NCBI RefSeq assembly: GCF_006538365.1
Contig: NZ_BJKN01000001.1
Location: forward strand, 737,639-801,638
DNA from: Moorella sp. E308F
Lineage (GTDB): Bacteria > Bacillota > DSM-521 > Neomoorellales > Neomoorellaceae
Direction of reading: 5' to 3'
DNA length: 64,000 bases
Shown here piece by piece: positions 46,414 through 53,584 of this stretch. The notes beneath the pieces are model-generated. The model had not been told where the DNA came from, ran no database searches, and saw only the letters and a list, made by a program, of their open reading frames with translations. The position numbers and the translations under genes are program-made. Each line of letters opens with the position of its first letter. The stretch's first letter is position 1.

Positions 46414-46893
46414 CACCGTTTTGCCCCCTAAGCCATGGATGAAGCAACCAGTGCCATGGCAATTTTTTTGTTACGGCTCTGGCAACCATGGGCGGGGTAA
46501 ATTAACGATTGCTTTTTTCCGAGAGAAGGAATTTGTTGAGCGGGGTCGAATATAAAAATATTAAAGCAAATTATTGGAGGATAATTCCAGCGATGGCAAA
46601 GAGCATAACAGAAATTAACATAAAAAATAAAAATAACCAATGGGGGGGGGGGGGGATTATATGCCTTGTATGTAAAATATTGGAAAAAAGTTTCCCCTCT
46701 ATTAGCCCCCTTAAAATTACTGCAAATAACATTCCTCCCAACCCATCCAGTGTTACCTTCCATAACACCTCCAGGAACCAGAATTTCCTTGTGATTTTTC
46801 GGAAAAATGTCCAGGGGTCACTGGACAGCCGTCACCATACCTTCTCCTCTGCTCCCAGGGTTTCCTAAGAGATATCTTTCTTATGTAAATAGC
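46414..46893. other. Intergenic AT-rich stretch with a 14-base G run
   Basis: No convincing gene. G14 at 46642-46655. The minus-strand frame 46571-46768 codes for a 65-residue, largely hydrophobic peptide (DGLGGMLFAVILRGLIEGK; WLFLFFMLISVMLFAIAG) with four prolines made by the C tract; GGAGG precedes a start in a different frame. It could be a small, possibly phase-variable membrane protein or a chance frame. Confidence 0.4.
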
Positions 46894-46988
46894 TTAAAGT
46901 GTTCAAGGGCAAACCACTCGAAAGGGTGGGACGCAAAGCCATGGGTCTGTAGCCACTTGTTGGTATGACTGCCAGGCTGCCACTTTAA
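46894..46988 (+). ncRNA. Cyclic di-GMP-I (GEMM) riboswitch aptamer
   Basis: P1 is TTAAAGTG (46894-46901) with CACTTTAA (46981-46988). Inside it are the class I signatures AGGGCAAACC, a GAAA-capped hairpin (CCACTCGAAAGGGTGG) and GGGACGCAAAGCC, then a second arm ending GACTGCCAGGCTGCC. This matches the Vibrio Vc2 aptamer core, including the tetraloop and the GACGCAAAGCC strand. It stands upstream of the operon starting at 47182 with no gene in between. Confidence 0.93.
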
Positions 46989-46995
46989 AGTAAAG

Positions 46996-47034
46996 GGCAG
47001 CCATGCGAATTACTCGTGGCTGCCTTGCTATTTC
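46996..47034 (+). terminator. Riboswitch expression-platform hairpin
   Basis: GGCAGCCATG (46996-47005) pairs with CGTGGCTGCC (47015-47024), followed by TTGCTATTT. Its left arm GGCAGCC is also complementary to GGCTGCC at 46975-46981 in the aptamer, giving a possible anti-terminator. Confidence 0.6.
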
Positions 47035-47181
47035 TAGATGGAACGAAGGCGGGGGCGGGTTCAGTGCAAAGGGATACAGTTACCCAAATTTTACTTGAGA
47101 TAAGGAAAAAACTTCTCTTTATGGGAGAAAGAGAATCTTTAAACCTGGTTTAAAGCCAGAGCAGTAGAGGGGGGGTCAGCT

Positions 47182-48441
47182 ATGCAAGAGTGTAGCCAGT
47201 GTGCCCGCAAGACCCCAGATCGTTCTTGTGTCGATTGCGATTATTTCATGAGCCCCGGCCCTTTACGCCGTAAGCCACCGGTACCCATAGGCATTAGCCT
47301 GGTTGCCCCCGATGGGAAACGTTATGCTGGCCGTATTCTCGTATTGAATACCATGGAACTGGGCCTGGAAACACAAGCTCCCATTCCCGGTCAATACCGG
47401 ATTTATTTAAAGCAGCATCTTAGCCTGGATGTAGCAGGGGTACCGACCAAGGGCAAGGGTGACATCCACCTCTTTGATATCATAGCCGTTTACCGGGGCG
47501 AGGAAACAGCCAGCCGTCTGGGTAATGAAGAATACCGTTTACTGACGGGTAGTACGGGGGACTTCATTGAGCAAGTATCCCAATTAGTTCCCGCCCATTT
47601 ACAGGACCTGGTTAAAGAACGACTGCGTGCCGAGTTAGAAAGCTCGGAGATTTTTAATGCCATGCGGTTGGGCAAGGTAATGCGTTACGAAAAGGGGCGT
47701 TTTCGCCATCTGACAGGACAGGCTGACCTGGAACTGCCCCTGCCGGCAATAGAAAATTTAATGCGCCAGGCAATACACCGGGGAACCCACTGCCGGGAAG
47801 TGATAGTAAGTGATGACGGTAAAAGGATTTTTGACCTGCACGGTATACCCCTTGACTCCCGGTCAGGGGGCCTGCTGGCCTTTGATCTTACCGAAATTAT
47901 TGAAAAGGAAAGGCAGATGCGCTGCCAGGAGATGCAGGCCTACCGGGAAGCCGTGGCTGCCGTCACCAATGGGCGCCTGCAGCTTTTGACTTCAGAAGAA
48001 ATGGTAGCTGTATTATCCGAGGGGAATGAACTGGCAAGGGGAGTAGTTAACAAGGCTGCTGACATAGCTTTGGCTCGCAGCAAGTTATGCAGCTTGCTAC
48101 CTGCGGCTTTTAGCGCCCGCGCGTACGGCATGGCCTTATCTTTAACGGAGGCTTTGACCAATACATTAAAACACGCTACGGGTGGTGAATGGGTGGTACG
48201 GCAGACGGATGCGGCCATCCGGGTAATTATTCAAGACCAGGGCCAGGGAATTAAGATAAAAGATTTACCCAAAGCGGCTTTAATGCGACATTACTCCACA
48301 AAAAATTCTCTTGGTTGTGGGTTTACTTTAATGCTTTATTATGCTGATAAAGTTTATCTAACTACCGGTTCCAGGGGAACCACCCTGGTCCTTGATTTCC
48401 ATCAATCAGCAGATGAAGATATCTGTTCTCCAGCTTCTTAA
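47182..48441 (+). CDS. Zinc-ribbon/PAS-like protein with RsbW/RsbT-type HATPase domain
   Basis: 419 residues, in order: a zinc ribbon (CSQCARKTPDRSCVDC, cysteines 4, 7, 16, 19); a beta-rich segment of about 90 residues (KPPVPIGISLVAPDGKRYAG, VLNTMELGLETQ) that resembles a degenerate PilZ domain; a linker helix; a PAS-like domain (about 165-255); and a C-terminal HATPase_c_2 (about 305-410). The HATPase has N box SLTEALTNTLKHA, G box IIQDQGQGIKI and a lid STKNSLGCGFTLML. No histidine-kinase dimerisation domain is present, so it is likely a serine/threonine kinase or anti-sigma-type switch protein acting on the STAS proteins downstream. First gene behind the c-di-GMP riboswitch. Start ATG 47182 behind GAGGGGGGG. 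Confidence 0.8.
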   Translation: MQECSQCARKTPDRSCVDCDYFMSPGPLRRKPPVPIGISLVAPDGKRYAGRILVLNTMELGLETQAPIPGQYRIYLKQHLSLDVAGVPTKGKGDIHLFDIIAVYRGEETASRLGNEEYRLLTGSTGDFIEQVSQLVPAHLQDLVKERLRAELESSEIFNAMRLGKVMRYEKGRFRHLTGQADLELPLPAIENLMRQAIHRGTHCREVIVSDDGKRIFDLHGIPLDSRSGGLLAFDLTEIIEKERQMRCQEMQAYREAVAAVTNGRLQLLTSEEMVAVLSEGNELARGVVNKAADIALARSKLCSLLPAAFSARAYGMALSLTEALTNTLKHATGGEWVVRQTDAAIRVIIQDQGQGIKIKDLPKAALMRHYSTKNSLGCGFTLMLYYADKVYLTTGSRGTTLVLDFHQSADEDICSPAS

Positions 48442-48466
48442 GTAAAGAAAGAGGAGGAGCGATATT

Positions 48467-48796
48467 ATGCTGGCAATTTCTGTAACCAAAGGCACTTATG
48501 GGCGCTGTTTAAACCTTAAAGGGGAGTTAGACATGGAAACCCTGGCCACGCTGGAGCGAGCAGCAGAAGTACAGGAAGGAGAGGGGCAATTGGAAATAAA
48601 CCTGGCAGGAGTATCCTTTATAGATTCTACAGGTCTCAGGGGTTTATTAGAAATACAGCGCCGGTGGTCAATGAAGGGAGGTAAGGTACGGGTTATTAAC
48701 CCCTGTCCGGAGATTGCCGAAGTTTTTCGGCTGGTAGGTATGGAAGAACTTTTAGATTGTAGTGACCAGAGCAAGGCAACCGGGGGTGAATATTAA
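48467..48796 (+). CDS. STAS-domain anti-sigma-factor antagonist (first copy)
   Basis: 109 residues, SpoIIAA/RsbV type. The conserved loop SFIDSTGLRGLLEIQRR carries the serine expected to be phosphorylated; NLAGVSFIDS and VRVINPCPEIAEVFRLVGM complete the fold. It should be phosphorylated by an HATPase kinase and dephosphorylated by a PP2C phosphatase; both are encoded on either side. GAGGAGGAG precedes the ATG at 48467. The stop abuts the next start. Confidence 0.9.
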   Translation: MLAISVTKGTYGRCLNLKGELDMETLATLERAAEVQEGEGQLEINLAGVSFIDSTGLRGLLEIQRRWSMKGGKVRVINPCPEIAEVFRLVGMEELLDCSDQSKATGGEY

Positions 48797-49534
48797 ATGT
48801 CCCTGGATACCGGTGGCAAGGGGAAACAAATAATACATGCCGGTATACAGGGTGCGGGGTGTAGTATTCCAGCAGACCTGGAAGGCGGCGACTTTTTTGA
48901 TTTTATTCCCCTGGGTGAAGACCAACTTATTGTTGCTATCGGAGATGTAATGGGTAAAGGTATGCGTGCCGCCGGGCAAATGAAGGAGCTTTGTACAATC
49001 TTACATGCCTGTACCAGGAAAGATCTGTCCCTATTGGAAATCATAAATCAGCTGGCTGCAATCGGAGGAAAACAGCTGCACCGCGCCGGTTCCTTTGCTA
49101 CCCTGTGCCTTATTTCTTATGAACAGCAGCATAATTGTTTAACCTGCCTCAGCGCCGGACACCCGTCTCCGGTAATATTTTCAGGCCGTAATATCCACGT
49201 ACCCCGGGTAAGGGGGGTGGCCCTGGGCTTCCTGGAAGAATACCAGGGTACTCGACCGGAACAAGTTGTCCTGTCTCGCGGCGATGTAGTTATCCTGTAT
49301 ACCGATGGCCTGGTAGAAGCCCGCGATGCCAACGGTCAAAATTATGGTTTAAATCGCCTCAAAGAGATAGTTGCCGCCAATACCTGCCTGGATGCAGTTG
49401 AACTCCAGGAGGTTATCTTAAATGACTTATTTACCTTTACCGGCTGCAGGCAGCAAAGGGATGATGTAACCCTGGTAATCCTTAAGAAAGAGCTGGAAAA
49501 GGGGGGTGAGTGTCATGGAGATCAGGGTAAATAA
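48797..49534 (+). CDS. SpoIIE/RsbU-type PP2C phosphatase without sensor domain
   Basis: 245 residues, just the catalytic domain: metal-binding GGDFFDFIPLGED, GDVMGKGMRAAGQM, LTCLSAGHPSPVIF, VILYTDGLVEARD and a final RDDVTLVIL. It should dephosphorylate the neighbouring STAS proteins. Without a fused sensor, its input must come from its level, a partner, or the riboswitch. Starts directly behind the STAS stop and overlaps the next STAS gene by 20 bases. Confidence 0.92.
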   Translation: MSLDTGGKGKQIIHAGIQGAGCSIPADLEGGDFFDFIPLGEDQLIVAIGDVMGKGMRAAGQMKELCTILHACTRKDLSLLEIINQLAAIGGKQLHRAGSFATLCLISYEQQHNCLTCLSAGHPSPVIFSGRNIHVPRVRGVALGFLEEYQGTRPEQVVLSRGDVVILYTDGLVEARDANGQNYGLNRLKEIVAANTCLDAVELQEVILNDLFTFTGCRQQRDDVTLVILKKELEKGGECHGDQGK

Positions 49535-49835
49535 AGAAAAGGAAAAGGCCACCCTGCTGGTAGCGGGGGAATTGGACTACAGCAATGTTGCTCAGCTGCA
49601 GCAAGAGATTGAAAGGCAGGAGGCTCCCGTGGTGGAGGTAGTTCTTAAGGACCTGCAGTTCATGGATTCCTCCGGTGCCGGGATGCTTCTTAACCAGGCC
49701 AGGTTGTTGAGCCAGCAGAACCGCGTTTTGAAAATTACCCATATCCCCGCAAATATTCGCCATGACCTGGAAATAATCGGCTTTTTCCGCGTCTTAGAAA
49801 CCCTTAAAGGCGCCCCTCAAAGTGGAGGGGAGTGA
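49515..49835 (+). CDS. STAS-domain anti-sigma-factor antagonist (second copy)
   Basis: 106 residues from the ATG at 49515 (AAGGGGGGTGAG upstream); a GTG at 49506 lies within that SD. Phospho-site loop LQFMDSSGAGMLLNQAR; LDYSNVAQLQQEIE and FFRVLETLKGA. Clearly different in sequence from the first STAS copy, so the two may have separate partners. Confidence 0.9.
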   Translation: MEIRVNKEKEKATLLVAGELDYSNVAQLQQEIERQEAPVVEVVLKDLQFMDSSGAGMLLNQARLLSQQNRVLKITHIPANIRHDLEIIGFFRVLETLKGAPQSGGE

Positions 49836-51650
49836 TTGCATGTGGAATCTTTAAAGACTGGAGCCCTTGAACAGCCCGGGGAAAAGGGCGTGGCACCCCG
49901 GGCGGCCATAATAAACGGACAGCTGGTAATAGAACACCCGCCCGGAGGCCCTTATCCGGTGATCGTGCCCTGCCCGGGGTTGCGCCTGGTAGTAAATGGG
50001 GAAGAACGAAGCGAACCGACGCCTGTAAATGAGAAGGACAGGGTGGAAATAATCGTCCTGGATGAAAGGCGGGAAGGATACTGGCAGGTAAAGGTTAGTG
50101 CGGATAAACAGGAGGCATTTTTACAGGTAAAACCCTGGGTATTAGTCCGGCGGCAAGTGCGGGACCTGCCACCGGCGCGGGTTTTATACCTGGAGGTCCT
50201 GGAGCACGAAGATTTCTATAAACCCTTTACCCTGGAAGATTTAACCAGGGAAATGGGGCGCCAGGGTATCAAGTATGGTATCGACTGGCAGGCCTGTGCC
50301 CGGGGACTTGAAGCCTCAACCGAGGGTACTTTAATTATTGCCCGGGGGCAACCACCAGTACCAGGTAAAGACGCCACGGTAGAATTATTCTTTACTACCC
50401 AGCAAAAGGTTCCAGTAGCAGTCGGAGAAGAGGAGACAGTGAACTTCCGGGAAAGGTTTCGTTTTACCGCGGTTGAAGCCGGAATGGTCCTGGCCAGGAA
50501 ACACCCGGCCGAAGTTGGGCGGCCGGGGAAGGCGGTAACGGGGGAAATAATCGTGCCCCCCGAGCCCAGGGATATTCAAATGACAGCCGGTTCCGGCGCT
50601 GTTTTAAGCAAAGATGGTTTGGAGATCATTGCTACCATAGCCGGCCGCCCCGTGGCAAGGGGGGTTAAAGGGCGGGTTGTTATCAGTGTGCTCCCCGCCC
50701 TCATGCACCCTGGTAATGTTGATATTACCTCGGGAAACATTTCTTTCACCGGCGATGTAATGATTGCCGGCCAGGTTGAAGAAGGGATGAGTGTTGAGGC
50801 TGGCGGTAATATTTATATAGAGGGCGCTGTATCCAGGGCCATGGTCCGGGCCGGGGGCTTAATTGAGGTAGGCGGCAACGTTTTTTCTTCCCTGCTGGCC
50901 GCCGGGAGTACGGTGGCTTTGCAGCAGAAATTCGGCTCAATACTTGCCAGGGTTGCTACCATCCTGGAGCAATTTGTAGCCGCTGCTATCCAGCTTTTCC
51001 ATCATCCTTCCTTCAAAAAGGATGACCTTAAAGGTGGTATTGGTCCCCTGGTATTACTGCTTTTAGAGAAGAAATTTCGCGAGCTTCCTGCGGCGGTAGA
51101 ATTACTAAAAAAGGAAGCCCACAGCCTTCCTGCTATATCAATGAATAGTTCGACGGCATTGATAAATGAACTGGAACGCCTGGTAAGGACACCATTGGCC
51201 ATCAACAGTTTAGAACAACTGGAATCAATGTTGAAAGAAATTATAACCTGGCGGGATGAGATTAATATACCGCCTCAAGGTGCGGCCGACATTATAATTC
51301 ACTACGCCATTAACTCAACCGTTATAGCCACCGGTAACATTAAAGTAATAGGTGATGGCTGTTATCATACCAGGTTGCAGGCCGGGAAAGCGGTAGCTGT
51401 GCATGGTGTGTTCCGCGGTGGGGAGATCCAGGCCCAGGGTGACGTTTATATTAAAGAACTGGGCTCCCGTACCGGTACGAGTACCAGGGTCGAAACCCAG
51501 GCCGGGGCTACTGTGACCATAGCTCATGCTTTTGAGAATACTTCCATCCGGATAGGTTCCCGCCAGTATTCTTTTGTTCAGGAAGAATGGGGAGTGCGGC
51601 TATGGCTTGACCGGGAAGGAAACCTGGCCAGGCGTACTATTCCAGCCTGA
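49836..51650 (+). CDS. FapA family protein (DUF342)
   Basis: 604 residues. N-terminal domain (about 1-200), then the FapA core with a right-handed beta-helix pattern (VDITSGNISFTGDVMIAGQV, GNIYIEGAVSRAMVRAGG, LIEVGGNVFSSLLAAGS), a central helical insertion (about 375-480), and more helix turns at the C-terminus (GNIKVIGDGCYHTRLQAGK). Named flagellar assembly protein A in Vibrio-type genomes but widespread in Gram-positives with unclear role; polymer- or surface-related scaffolding is a guess. Start TTG 49836 or GTG 49842; GGAGGGGAG spacing slightly favours the latter. Last gene of the operon. Confidence 0.85.
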   Translation: MHVESLKTGALEQPGEKGVAPRAAIINGQLVIEHPPGGPYPVIVPCPGLRLVVNGEERSEPTPVNEKDRVEIIVLDERREGYWQVKVSADKQEAFLQVKPWVLVRRQVRDLPPARVLYLEVLEHEDFYKPFTLEDLTREMGRQGIKYGIDWQACARGLEASTEGTLIIARGQPPVPGKDATVELFFTTQQKVPVAVGEEETVNFRERFRFTAVEAGMVLARKHPAEVGRPGKAVTGEIIVPPEPRDIQMTAGSGAVLSKDGLEIIATIAGRPVARGVKGRVVISVLPALMHPGNVDITSGNISFTGDVMIAGQVEEGMSVEAGGNIYIEGAVSRAMVRAGGLIEVGGNVFSSLLAAGSTVALQQKFGSILARVATILEQFVAAAIQLFHHPSFKKDDLKGGIGPLVLLLLEKKFRELPAAVELLKKEAHSLPAISMNSSTALINELERLVRTPLAINSLEQLESMLKEIITWRDEINIPPQGAADIIIHYAINSTVIATGNIKVIGDGCYHTRLQAGKAVAVHGVFRGGEIQAQGDVYIKELGSRTGTSTRVETQAGATVTIAHAFENTSIRIGSRQYSFVQEEWGVRLWLDREGNLARRTIPA

Positions 51651-51670: not shown

Positions 51671-51695
51671 AACCCCCCTGAAGGGGGGCTTTTTG
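51671..51695 (+). terminator. Terminator of the riboswitch operon
   Basis: CCCCCCT, short loop, AGGGGGG (51673-51688), CT and then T's that end at the group II intron boundary. Confidence 0.85.
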
Positions 51696-53584
51696 TGCGC
51701 CCGGCATGGGCGTTAACTTGGTGGTGAAAGTCCACTGCAGGCGAGGCAGCACGAGTCTGCTAGCCAAAGGCAAGGGTGCCCATCGCGAGGTGGGATCCGG
51801 AGGAAGCCGGAGGCAAAGTCACGGCCCGATGAACAAGAACCCCATAGGAGGCTAGACCATCCGGATGAGCTGGCGAAACACAGCGAAATCCCAGGCTGCC
51901 AAGGGATGGTAGAGTATATGGGGCGGGCGCGGGGCGAAGGTTAACGCTCTTACCCGGGGAGGCCTGCCGGATAAGCCAGGAAAAGCTGGCAACCCGTGTC
52001 GAAAGGCACGGCTGAACCGGCAGGAGTCAGCAGAAGGCATAGTACCCTGGGGGTCATGAACTCCAGGGGAAGGCCCGAACATCAAGTCAGAGGTGAGACC
52101 GATGCGTTCGCGAGAAGGGCGAAGACAGCAGAAACCCCCGGAAGGGGCCTGCCCGCGGGAGGAAGTGGTGAAGCCACAGGGGACCGCGGGAGGGCCGAGT
52201 TCTTCTCCGGCACAAAGCGGGACGTCACCTCGCGGAGGCCAAGGTAGCGGCCTGATGGAACAGGTGGTGGAAAGGCAAAACATGCTGGCCGCGTGTAAGC
52301 GGGTAGAGCGGAACGGAGGCGCACCCGGCGTGGACGGCATCCCGACCGAACGGCTGCGGGACCAAATCCGCGCCGAATGGCCGCGTATCCGGGAAGAACT
52401 GCTCGCGGGAACCTACAGACCAAAGCCCGTACGCCGGGTCGAAATCCCGAAACCCGGGGGAGGCAAACGGATGTTAGGGATACCCACCGTGATGGACCGC
52501 CTGATCCAGCAGGCCCTCCTGCAAGTATTGATGCCCATCTTCGAACCGCAGTTTTCAGAAAGCAGTTTCGGGTTCCGACCCGGAAGGAGAGCCCATGACG
52601 CGGTAAAGAAGGCGCGTCAATACGTGGAAGAAGGATACGAATGGGCGGTAGACCTGGATATCGAGAAATTCTTCGACCGGGTAAATCACGACATCCTCAT
52701 GGCCCGGGTGGCCCGGAAAGTAACGGATAAGAGGGTACTAAAACTCATCCGCCGTTACCTCCAGGCGGGGGTTATGGTGAACGGAGTGGTCATGGAAAGG
52801 GAAGAAGGAACGCCCCAGGGTGGACCCTTAAGCCCGCTCCTGGCCAACATCCTCCTGGACGACCTGGACAAAGAACTGGAGAAGAGGGGCCACAAGTTCG
52901 TCCGTTACGCCGATGACTGCAACATCTACGTCAAAAGCAAACGAGCGGGAGAAAGGGTCATGGAAAGTATCCGCAACTTCCTGCAGGAGCGGTTAAAGCT
53001 CAAGATTAACGAGCAAAAGAGCGCGGTAGACCGACCGTGGAAACTGAAATTCCTGGGGTTCAGTATGTATAAGCCTAAGGCAGGAGTAATCCTCATCCGC
53101 CTGGCGCCGCAGACCATCGACCGGGTGAAAACGAAAATCCGGGAGATAACTGCCCGGAATAAACCCGTAAGCATGGCCGAGCGCATAGAGCACCTGAACG
53201 CCTATTTGGGCGGATGGATAGGATACTTCGCCCTGGCCGACACGCCCAGCACTTTTAAGAACATAGAAGGCTGGATGCGGAGGAGGCTGCGCATGTGCCT
53301 CTGGAAGCAGTGGAAGCGAGTACGGACCAGGTATCGCGAACTACGCGCACTGGGTTTACCAGAATGGGTAGTACATGAATACGCCAACGCTCGCAAAGGG
53401 CCATGGCGGATGGCCCATGGGCCAATGAATAGAGCCCTGGGCAATACCTACTGGCAGTCCCAGGGCCTCATGAGCTTAACCGAACGCTATCTCAGTCTTC
53501 GTCAAGCTTGGTGAACCGCCGGATGCGGACCCGCATGTCCGGTGGTGTGAGGGGACGGGGGCTAGCCGCCCCCTCCTACTCGAT
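51695..53584 (+). mobile_element. Group II intron with LtrA-type open reading frame
   Basis: The 5' end GTGCGCCCGGCATGGGC starts at 51695 directly behind the T run of the preceding terminator. About 400 bases of structured, ORF-free RNA (domains I-III) precede the reverse transcriptase gene in domain IV. Domain V is near 53513-53549 (ACCGCCGGATGCGG pairs with CGCATGTCCGGTGGT) and domain VI is the GGGGGCTAGCCGCCCCC hairpin, ending CTACTCGAT at 53584. The location right after an intrinsic terminator is the target choice known for class C introns; I did not classify the ribozyme. All parts look intact. Confidence 0.88.
52102..53514 (+). CDS. ltrA: Group II intron reverse transcriptase/maturase
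   Basis: 470 residues. RT fingers and palm: MLAACKRVERNGGAPGVDGI, SSFGFRPGRRAHDAV, VDLDIEKFFDRVNHDI, EGTPQGGPLSPLLANILL and catalytic YADD in KFVRYADDCNIYVKS. The maturase/X domain follows (LNAYLGGWIGYFALADTP; WMRRRLRMCLWKQWKR). There is no HNH endonuclease at the C-terminus. The ATG at 52102 has AGAGGTGA upstream; the first 50 residues are basic and may be non-essential, with an alternative ATG at 52255. Needed for splicing and retrohoming. Confidence 0.93.
   Translation: MRSREGRRQQKPPEGACPREEVVKPQGTAGGPSSSPAQSGTSPRGGQGSGLMEQVVERQNMLAACKRVERNGGAPGVDGIPTERLRDQIRAEWPRIREELLAGTYRPKPVRRVEIPKPGGGKRMLGIPTVMDRLIQQALLQVLMPIFEPQFSESSFGFRPGRRAHDAVKKARQYVEEGYEWAVDLDIEKFFDRVNHDILMARVARKVTDKRVLKLIRRYLQAGVMVNGVVMEREEGTPQGGPLSPLLANILLDDLDKELEKRGHKFVRYADDCNIYVKSKRAGERVMESIRNFLQERLKLKINEQKSAVDRPWKLKFLGFSMYKPKAGVILIRLAPQTIDRVKTKIREITARNKPVSMAERIEHLNAYLGGWIGYFALADTPSTFKNIEGWMRRRLRMCLWKQWKRVRTRYRELRALGLPEWVVHEYANARKGPWRMAHGPMNRALGNTYWQSQGLMSLTERYLSLRQAW

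Follow-up and report, generated by a model that had tools for sequence, protein, structure and literature searches.

What might a cyclic di-GMP (c-di-GMP) riboswitch achieve by standing in front of a partner switch, and upon what would such a switch act? This question is raised by an operon of Moorella sp. E308F, which lies in a stretch of 64,000 nucleotides (nt) of contig NZ_BJKN01000001.1 (positions 737,639 to 801,638; the whole stretch is termed the window, and its own numbering is used below). A class I c-di-GMP (GEMM-I) aptamer at 46899-46985 is followed by five genes spanning 47182-51650, all features of the operon and its leader being on the forward strand. These genes encode a kinase-like protein of 419 amino acids (aa) with a HATPase_c_2 domain (47182-48441); a STAS protein of the anti-sigma-antagonist type (48467-48796); a SpoIIE-type PP2C phosphatase (48797-49534); a second STAS protein (49506-49835); and FapA, of 604 aa (FapA_N plus beta-solenoid; 49836-51650). 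A predicted hairpin (CCCCCCTGAAGGGGGG and a T-run, 51673-51693) closes the operon as an intrinsic terminator. The domain hits agree with the gene content and order read in a first-pass annotation made from the letters alone, which had also proposed the aptamer and, as we do, saw no sigma factor gene in the operon. We lean towards reading the operon as a partner-switching module that is repressed by c-di-GMP and probably acts through FapA.

The aptamer exceeds the gathering thresholds of two Rfam models, namely RF03167 (c-di-GMP-I-GGC; 65.5 bits against 59, in a scan of the window) and its parent RF01051 (73.5 bits against 35, in a scan of the window's genome). This genome, of 3.06 Mb in 10 contigs, holds six GEMM-I elements above cut-off, the window aptamer included. 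The 'GGC variant' label of RF03167 was dropped for the ligand, since the variant base, a G in the consensus (GACGCgAAGC), is an A in the window. The ligand-contact bases, read against the RF03167 consensus with the GEMM-I numbering of contact positions, are canonical, and correspond to neither the cGAMP nor the GGC variant. On these grounds, we read the ligand as ordinary c-di-GMP. Further class I aptamers of these genomes have genes of the methyl-accepting chemotaxis type close by (L001, L003, L214, L216, L221 and L231; loci are given as L numbers and genomes as G numbers, G000 being that of the window), and L214 carries two in tandem. A sub-threshold c-di-GMP-I-like match of 27.5 bits, between flagellin and fliA regions (L007, G000:C3:367902-367986), may be a degenerate aptamer or chance.

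The sign of the switch can be predicted from the leader. Terminator-like hairpins stand 3' of the aptamer in all leaders examined, and that of the window, a predicted intrinsic terminator at 46995-47034 (GGGCAGCCAUGCG..CGUGGCUGCCU with a U-rich tail, -19.5 kcal/mol), recurs in the near Moorella relatives. In most leaders, the window included, the 5' arm of the terminator (GGCAGCC and variants; 46996-47002 in the window) is complementary to the 3' strand of the aptamer (GGCUGCC, 46975-46981), which predicts an antiterminator at 46975-47002. The window duplex has an energy of -18.5 kcal/mol (p 0.018 against shuffled arms) and is conserved in relatives. When this test, based on simple arm shuffles, was applied to 20 leaders from related loci, the duplex was stronger than shuffled arms at p < 0.05 in 14, and one further leader gave p 0.051. 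The bases past the core vary by lineage with pairing kept, namely, ACUUUA/UAAAG in Moorella, CCGG/CCGG in L033, and CCGC/GCGG in L060 and L063. Without ligand, the two folds of the window leader are nearly equal, at -54.3 kcal/mol for the antiterminator and -52.2 kcal/mol for the terminator. Because the terminator 5' arm pairs with the aptamer 3' strand, c-di-GMP should turn the operon off; the element is thus probably an OFF switch, by which c-di-GMP lowers operon expression. The class I c-di-GMP riboswitches functional in Clostridioides difficile are of the OFF type (PMC6366702).

A genome search for the five-gene order, as the first-pass annotation had proposed, revealed that the operon is not strain-specific. 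The kinase-STAS-PP2C-STAS-FapA order was found in 24 loci of 10 family-level groups, a count that includes the window as well as loci broken by contig ends, insertions or frameshifts, and the aptamer is present in 20 of the 24 leaders. Given six elements per 3 Mb, an aptamer within 1 kb upstream and in the right orientation is expected by chance at about 0.1%, so this association is far beyond chance. That the level of the entire partner switch is governed by c-di-GMP, as the first-pass annotation inferred, appears probable. Of 22 genomes of the order, 13 hold a kinase match at E <= 1e-10; in a phylum-wide sample of 398 genomes, 44 hold kinase relatives at E <= 1e-12, many of them partial. Among named genomes, a protein search found the kinase at 95-96% in Moorella mulderi, M. 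sulfitireducens and M. stamsii. In the FapA tree, the FapA of L032 (G016), which belongs to the window's own family, clusters with those of other families, and this suggests that the operon has moved between lineages as one unit. Transposase-like open reading frames (ORFs) split FapA in L025 (5969-7783) and the kinase gene in L031 (3171-4440), a sign that some lineages are breaking up the operon. One genome, G129 (5.0 Mb, 7% contamination), has the kinase/FapA module in several copies (L064, L065 and L173).

Comparison with relatives revealed that this strain has a derived version of the operon, with five genes, from which a first gene has been deleted. Between the aptamer, or the promoter region, and the kinase gene, ten loci (the near relatives L023 and L025-L027, as well as L029, L033, L034, L054, L056 and L060) carry a gene of about 240-270 aa, whose product is an HD_5 protein of the HD-GYP family of c-di-GMP phosphodiesterases (E about 1e-27). 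The HD, H, HH and D metal-ligand residues are invariant in eight members, and six of eight tails match the Spo0E-like model PF09388 (E 0.1 or better) and show the SxxxD signature that characterizes Spo0E (PMC11115286); the match is above gathering in L026, L054, L056 and L060, and none was found in the tail of L029. In the window, as assembled, the leader alignment places both ends of this gene in the 197-nt gap between aptamer and kinase: its first 46 nt (47056-47101, with start GTG at 47064, VQRDTVTQILLEIR; 89% identity over 46 nt to the intact L026 gene) and its last 40 nt (47103-47142; 97.5% over 40 nt), joined at about 47102. An assembly error could give the same picture as a real loss. 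Remnants of the same gene in L032, L055 and L063 indicate that it was lost repeatedly while the rest of the operon was kept. No HD-GYP ortholog was found elsewhere in G000, and relocation within that genome was discarded, the best match being of just 44% and covering the HD part alone.

The same parts recur in other arrangements. In L057-L059, unrelated HD-GYP proteins are encoded upstream, in the place of this gene. Among the divergent loci, L068, which also has an HD-GYP gene, carries a stand-alone Spo0E-like ORF of 52 aa (41.2 bits) directly behind the aptamer, and L066 and L069 encode HD-domain proteins with a weak N-terminal Spo0E-like match, which in L069 passes the cut-off only if the segment is scanned alone. 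Four loci that also hold STAS and FapA genes (L145, L147, L152 and L065) encode an HATPase protein to which an HD-GYP domain is fused. That HD-GYP, Spo0E-like, partner-switch and FapA parts recur jointly in varied arrangements is our main reason to read them as one system.

The sequence hallmarks of a partner switch are present, namely, an HATPase kinase, STAS proteins with a conserved serine, and a PP2C with catalytic aspartates. Across the syntenic loci, the HATPase motifs of the kinase, the first serine of the DST/DSS motif in both STAS proteins, and the metal-binding aspartate motifs of the PP2C are conserved; the candidate phosphorylation sites in the window are Ser54 of the first STAS protein (DST) and Ser55 of the second (DSSG). 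The nearest named NCBIfam models are anti-sigma factors of the SpoIIAB/RsbW type and antagonists of the SpoIIAA type, with the kinase far below the equivalog cut-offs (28.9 against 135 bits for spIIAB, and 12.4 against 145 for RsbW). Ahead of its HATPase_c_2 domain (residues 308-404), the kinase has an invariant Cys4 motif (residues 4, 7, 16 and 19), a conserved beta-rich stretch to about residue 130, and a PAS-like middle whose PAS hit is sub-threshold (E 0.094). The beta-rich domain was matched by no library searched. A PilZ identity, plausible by eye, was rejected: Pfam on 14 members, a sequence-profile search of the PDB and an hhalign comparison with the PilZ (YcgR-like) protein of the genome itself all gave it no support. 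An AlphaFold model built from four near-identical sequences was unusable (mean pLDDT, the predicted local distance difference test score, of 37). The first-pass annotation suggested that the riboswitch may be the main input, because the phosphatase lacks a sensor. This PP2C indeed has no extra sensor domain; the suggestion is nevertheless doubtful, because the Cys4/beta-rich N-terminus and PAS-like middle of the kinase may provide a protein-level input besides the riboswitch.

Both domains of the operon FapA (PF03961 and PF20250) score above cut-off, at 136.1 and 99.4 bits. We surveyed 60 FapA loci picked from a phylum search, of which the 20 top-scoring lie mostly beside fliA. The FapA of the operon falls on a branch apart from most fliA-linked FapA, and is not linked to fliA or flagellar genes; the genomes are flagellated. 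When FapA proteins were labeled by the presence of a partner switch, the labels required six changes on the tree, compared with 24.4 with shuffled labels, and the starred branches force at least three. L145, L152, L167 and L171 have FapA together with STAS plus HATPase and/or PP2C in other gene orders. This persistence of FapA beside STAS and HATPase genes strengthens FapA as the likely output of the partner switch, for which the first-pass annotation had named either FapA or an unseen sigma factor. A second FapA of the window's genome (L172 5383-7437, G000:C3; 684 aa) begins with a Jag_N domain at its N-terminus; its neighbours, as judged by eye, are a Fur-like gene on the upstream side and a Crp-like gene on the downstream side.

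Based on the aptamer, gene identities, synteny, remnants, arm complementarity and domain fusions, a mechanism can be proposed, for which we infer ligand binding, the sign of the switch, the enzyme activities, the STAS-FapA contact, and the roles in motility and sporulation from family membership and sequence. At high c-di-GMP, the aptamer would fold and hold its 3' strand, the antiterminator would be blocked, and transcription would end in the leader; at low c-di-GMP, read-through would allow the operon to be made. In relatives, the first product, the HD-GYP protein, is predicted to degrade c-di-GMP and to keep its level low, so that behind an OFF riboswitch it would favour its own expression, a double-negative feedback that is potentially bistable. 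Its Spo0E-like tail may dephosphorylate Spo0A~P and restrain sporulation. Kinase and PP2C would set the phosphorylation of the two STAS proteins, the unphosphorylated form of which may bind or release FapA; the latter, in turn, may act on flagellar assembly or on another motility function. Riboswitch, phosphodiesterase, partner switch and FapA could together sustain a bistable low-c-di-GMP, motile state. The window strain would keep the riboswitch and the partner switch, the feedback step at this locus having gone with the phosphodiesterase. The c-di-GMP gating of the first-pass interpretation is retained here, and the order proved to be conserved; that interpretation gave no sign for the switch, which we predict to be OFF, and missed the deleted HD-GYP gene.

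Other explanations have to be weighed against this mechanism. The partner switch could control c-di-GMP turnover if the kinase and STAS proteins acted on the HD-GYP phosphodiesterase in the way that SiaABC acts on the cyclase SiaD (PMC7647112), with FapA as a second or accessory partner. Besides this precedent, the fusions of HD-GYP to HATPase in L145, L147, L152 and L065, and the unrelated HD-GYP proteins upstream in L057-L059, speak for such a role. However, kinase, STAS, PP2C and FapA were kept through at least four losses of the HD-GYP gene, and must therefore have another task in the strains concerned, that of the window among them. We hold this possibility to be unlikely. We are equally doubtful that the switch controls an unlinked sigma factor (FliA, SigF or other) in the classical manner, with FapA merely co-transcribed. 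The closest NCBIfam models are anti-sigma and antagonist families, and fliA is present elsewhere in Moorella. Yet none of the 24 loci showed a sigma factor gene, the kinase remains well under the anti-sigma cut-offs, and FapA has held its place beside STAS and HATPase genes although the gene order changed several times. That the riboswitch is an ON switch, or controls nothing in the window strain since the deletion, seems to us quite improbable. Class I switches are ON in some species (PMC6366702), and the U-tract of the window terminator is weak (TTGCTATTTC), but the architecture in which the aptamer 3' strand pairs with the terminator 5' arm, in most leaders and in the window too, is of the OFF type, and the window leader and downstream genes are intact.

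The reading of a c-di-GMP-repressed module acting on FapA must itself be set against several observations. The leaders of L054, L057, L058 and L071 lack the aptamer, even at E 1, and in L028, L034, L055, L059 and L068 the complementarity between terminator and aptamer is no better than with shuffled arms. The proline of the GYP motif is lost in the HD-GYP protein of relatives (GY[A/E/V/Y/L]), which makes its activity uncertain, and in six syntenic loci neither an HD-GYP gene nor a remnant of one could be detected, so that the module can do without the phosphodiesterase. Most surveyed FapA genes outside the operon have no partner switch nearby, and the contact between STAS proteins and FapA is one that we infer. 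Finally, flagellin was considered as a phyletic test and abandoned: it is present in all 32 genomes with the system or an HATPase relative, a weak link given that 322 of 398 sampled genomes (81%) carry flagellin anyway.

Known systems share parts of this module. The Cd1 class I riboswitch of the flgB operon of C. difficile (PMC6366702) resembles ours as a class I aptamer with a terminator platform before a motility operon of a Bacillota species, and in the predicted OFF sign; here, a partner switch and FapA would be controlled and, in relatives, also a c-di-GMP phosphodiesterase-type gene, a kind of target rarely controlled by c-di-GMP riboswitches (PMC6366702). SiaABCD of Pseudomonas aeruginosa (PMC7647112) likewise ties a PP2C, an HATPase-type kinase and a phosphorylated antagonist to c-di-GMP metabolism, but SiaD is a cyclase rather than a phosphodiesterase-type HD-GYP protein, SiaA has a sensor part, and Sia has neither riboswitch nor FapA. 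SpoIIAA/SpoIIAB/SpoIIE and RsbV/RsbW/RsbU also combine STAS, HATPase kinase and SpoIIE-type PP2C in a single operon; the present operon differs in having no sigma factor gene, two STAS proteins, a kinase whose N-terminus combines Cys4, unassigned and PAS-like parts, and FapA as the last gene. In Vibrio vulnificus, as cited in PMC7914778, FapA is controlled by sequestration through a phosphorylation-dependent partner (EIIA-Glc) and affects flagella; the partner here is of another kind, and the operon FapA stands apart from most fliA-linked FapA. Spo0E represses sporulation, affects motility, and links both in C. difficile and Bacillus subtilis (PMC11115286). In the HD-GYP protein of relatives, a tail with this SxxxD signature is fused to the HD-GYP domain and stands behind a c-di-GMP riboswitch; the window strain lacks it. 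In open-access papers, to which the search was directed, subscription journals lying outside its scope, we found no account of the combination of riboswitch, partner switch and FapA, in line with the first-pass annotation. If our reading is correct, four regulators that are mostly studied separately would come together in one conserved module: a c-di-GMP riboswitch, a c-di-GMP phosphodiesterase bearing a Spo0E-like tail, a partner switch, and FapA. This would offer a candidate non-sigma output for partner switches and a c-di-GMP riboswitch that controls c-di-GMP turnover. The choice of spore-forming anaerobes to swim or sporulate would become testable in culturable acetogens, with a natural phosphodiesterase deletion for comparison.

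A further feature of the locus is a homopolymer of 14 G (46642-46655), which lies 244 nt 5' of the aptamer and breaks a small ORF of 119 codons from TTG (46509-46868), possibly a slippage-prone leader ORF. This ORF has a good Shine-Dalgarno sequence and ATG at about 46594, and stops 30 nt before the aptamer. Tracts of 11-22 G occur at the same operon in 12 other loci (13 with the window), lying downstream of the aptamer in L028 and L059, and at a second, HD-GYP-bearing aptamer in L064. In the Moorella operons, the ORF halves flanking the tract are open in nearly all relatives and in frame only in some, depending on tract length. Such a pattern would be compatible with a contingency ORF that is prone to slippage, and likewise with a non-coding element.

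Long G tracts are rare genome-wide in the order sample, and G009, G012 and G018 have no tract of 12 G or more elsewhere. Outside the operon, 27 were collected, mostly from the order sample and leaving out G001, G020 and G021; four are at contig ends, and 23 could be assessed. Twelve of the 23 lie upstream of HD-GYP, aptamer-MCP (methyl-accepting chemotaxis protein), MCP or CheW genes, six fall within an HD-GYP gene, towards its 3' end, and five are in other places. Loci of the first kind, from Moorella and relatives and often with a small ORF, include L214-L217, L221, L222, L227, L228, L231, L233 and L235; in L212, L224, L225, L232, L236 and L237, an HD-GYP gene of about 480-770 aa as read has G12-G15 in its 3' part. 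Many intergenic tracts are preceded by a Shine-Dalgarno sequence and ATG, and followed by a TA-rich flank that is similar from one to the next. The tracts suggest possible slippage-based phase variation, and it is tempting, if tentative, to see the operon as one member of a c-di-GMP regulon whose mark is long poly-G tracts of variable length. Were these tracts to slip, c-di-GMP signalling would differ at random from cell to cell by way of contingency elements. These would act on top of an OFF riboswitch and of a module, made up of phosphodiesterase, Spo0E, partner switch and FapA, by which motility is coupled to sporulation.

Just past the operon terminator, at 51700-53584, lies a group II intron with a reverse transcriptase/maturase, which is absent from this position in L023, L026 and L027.

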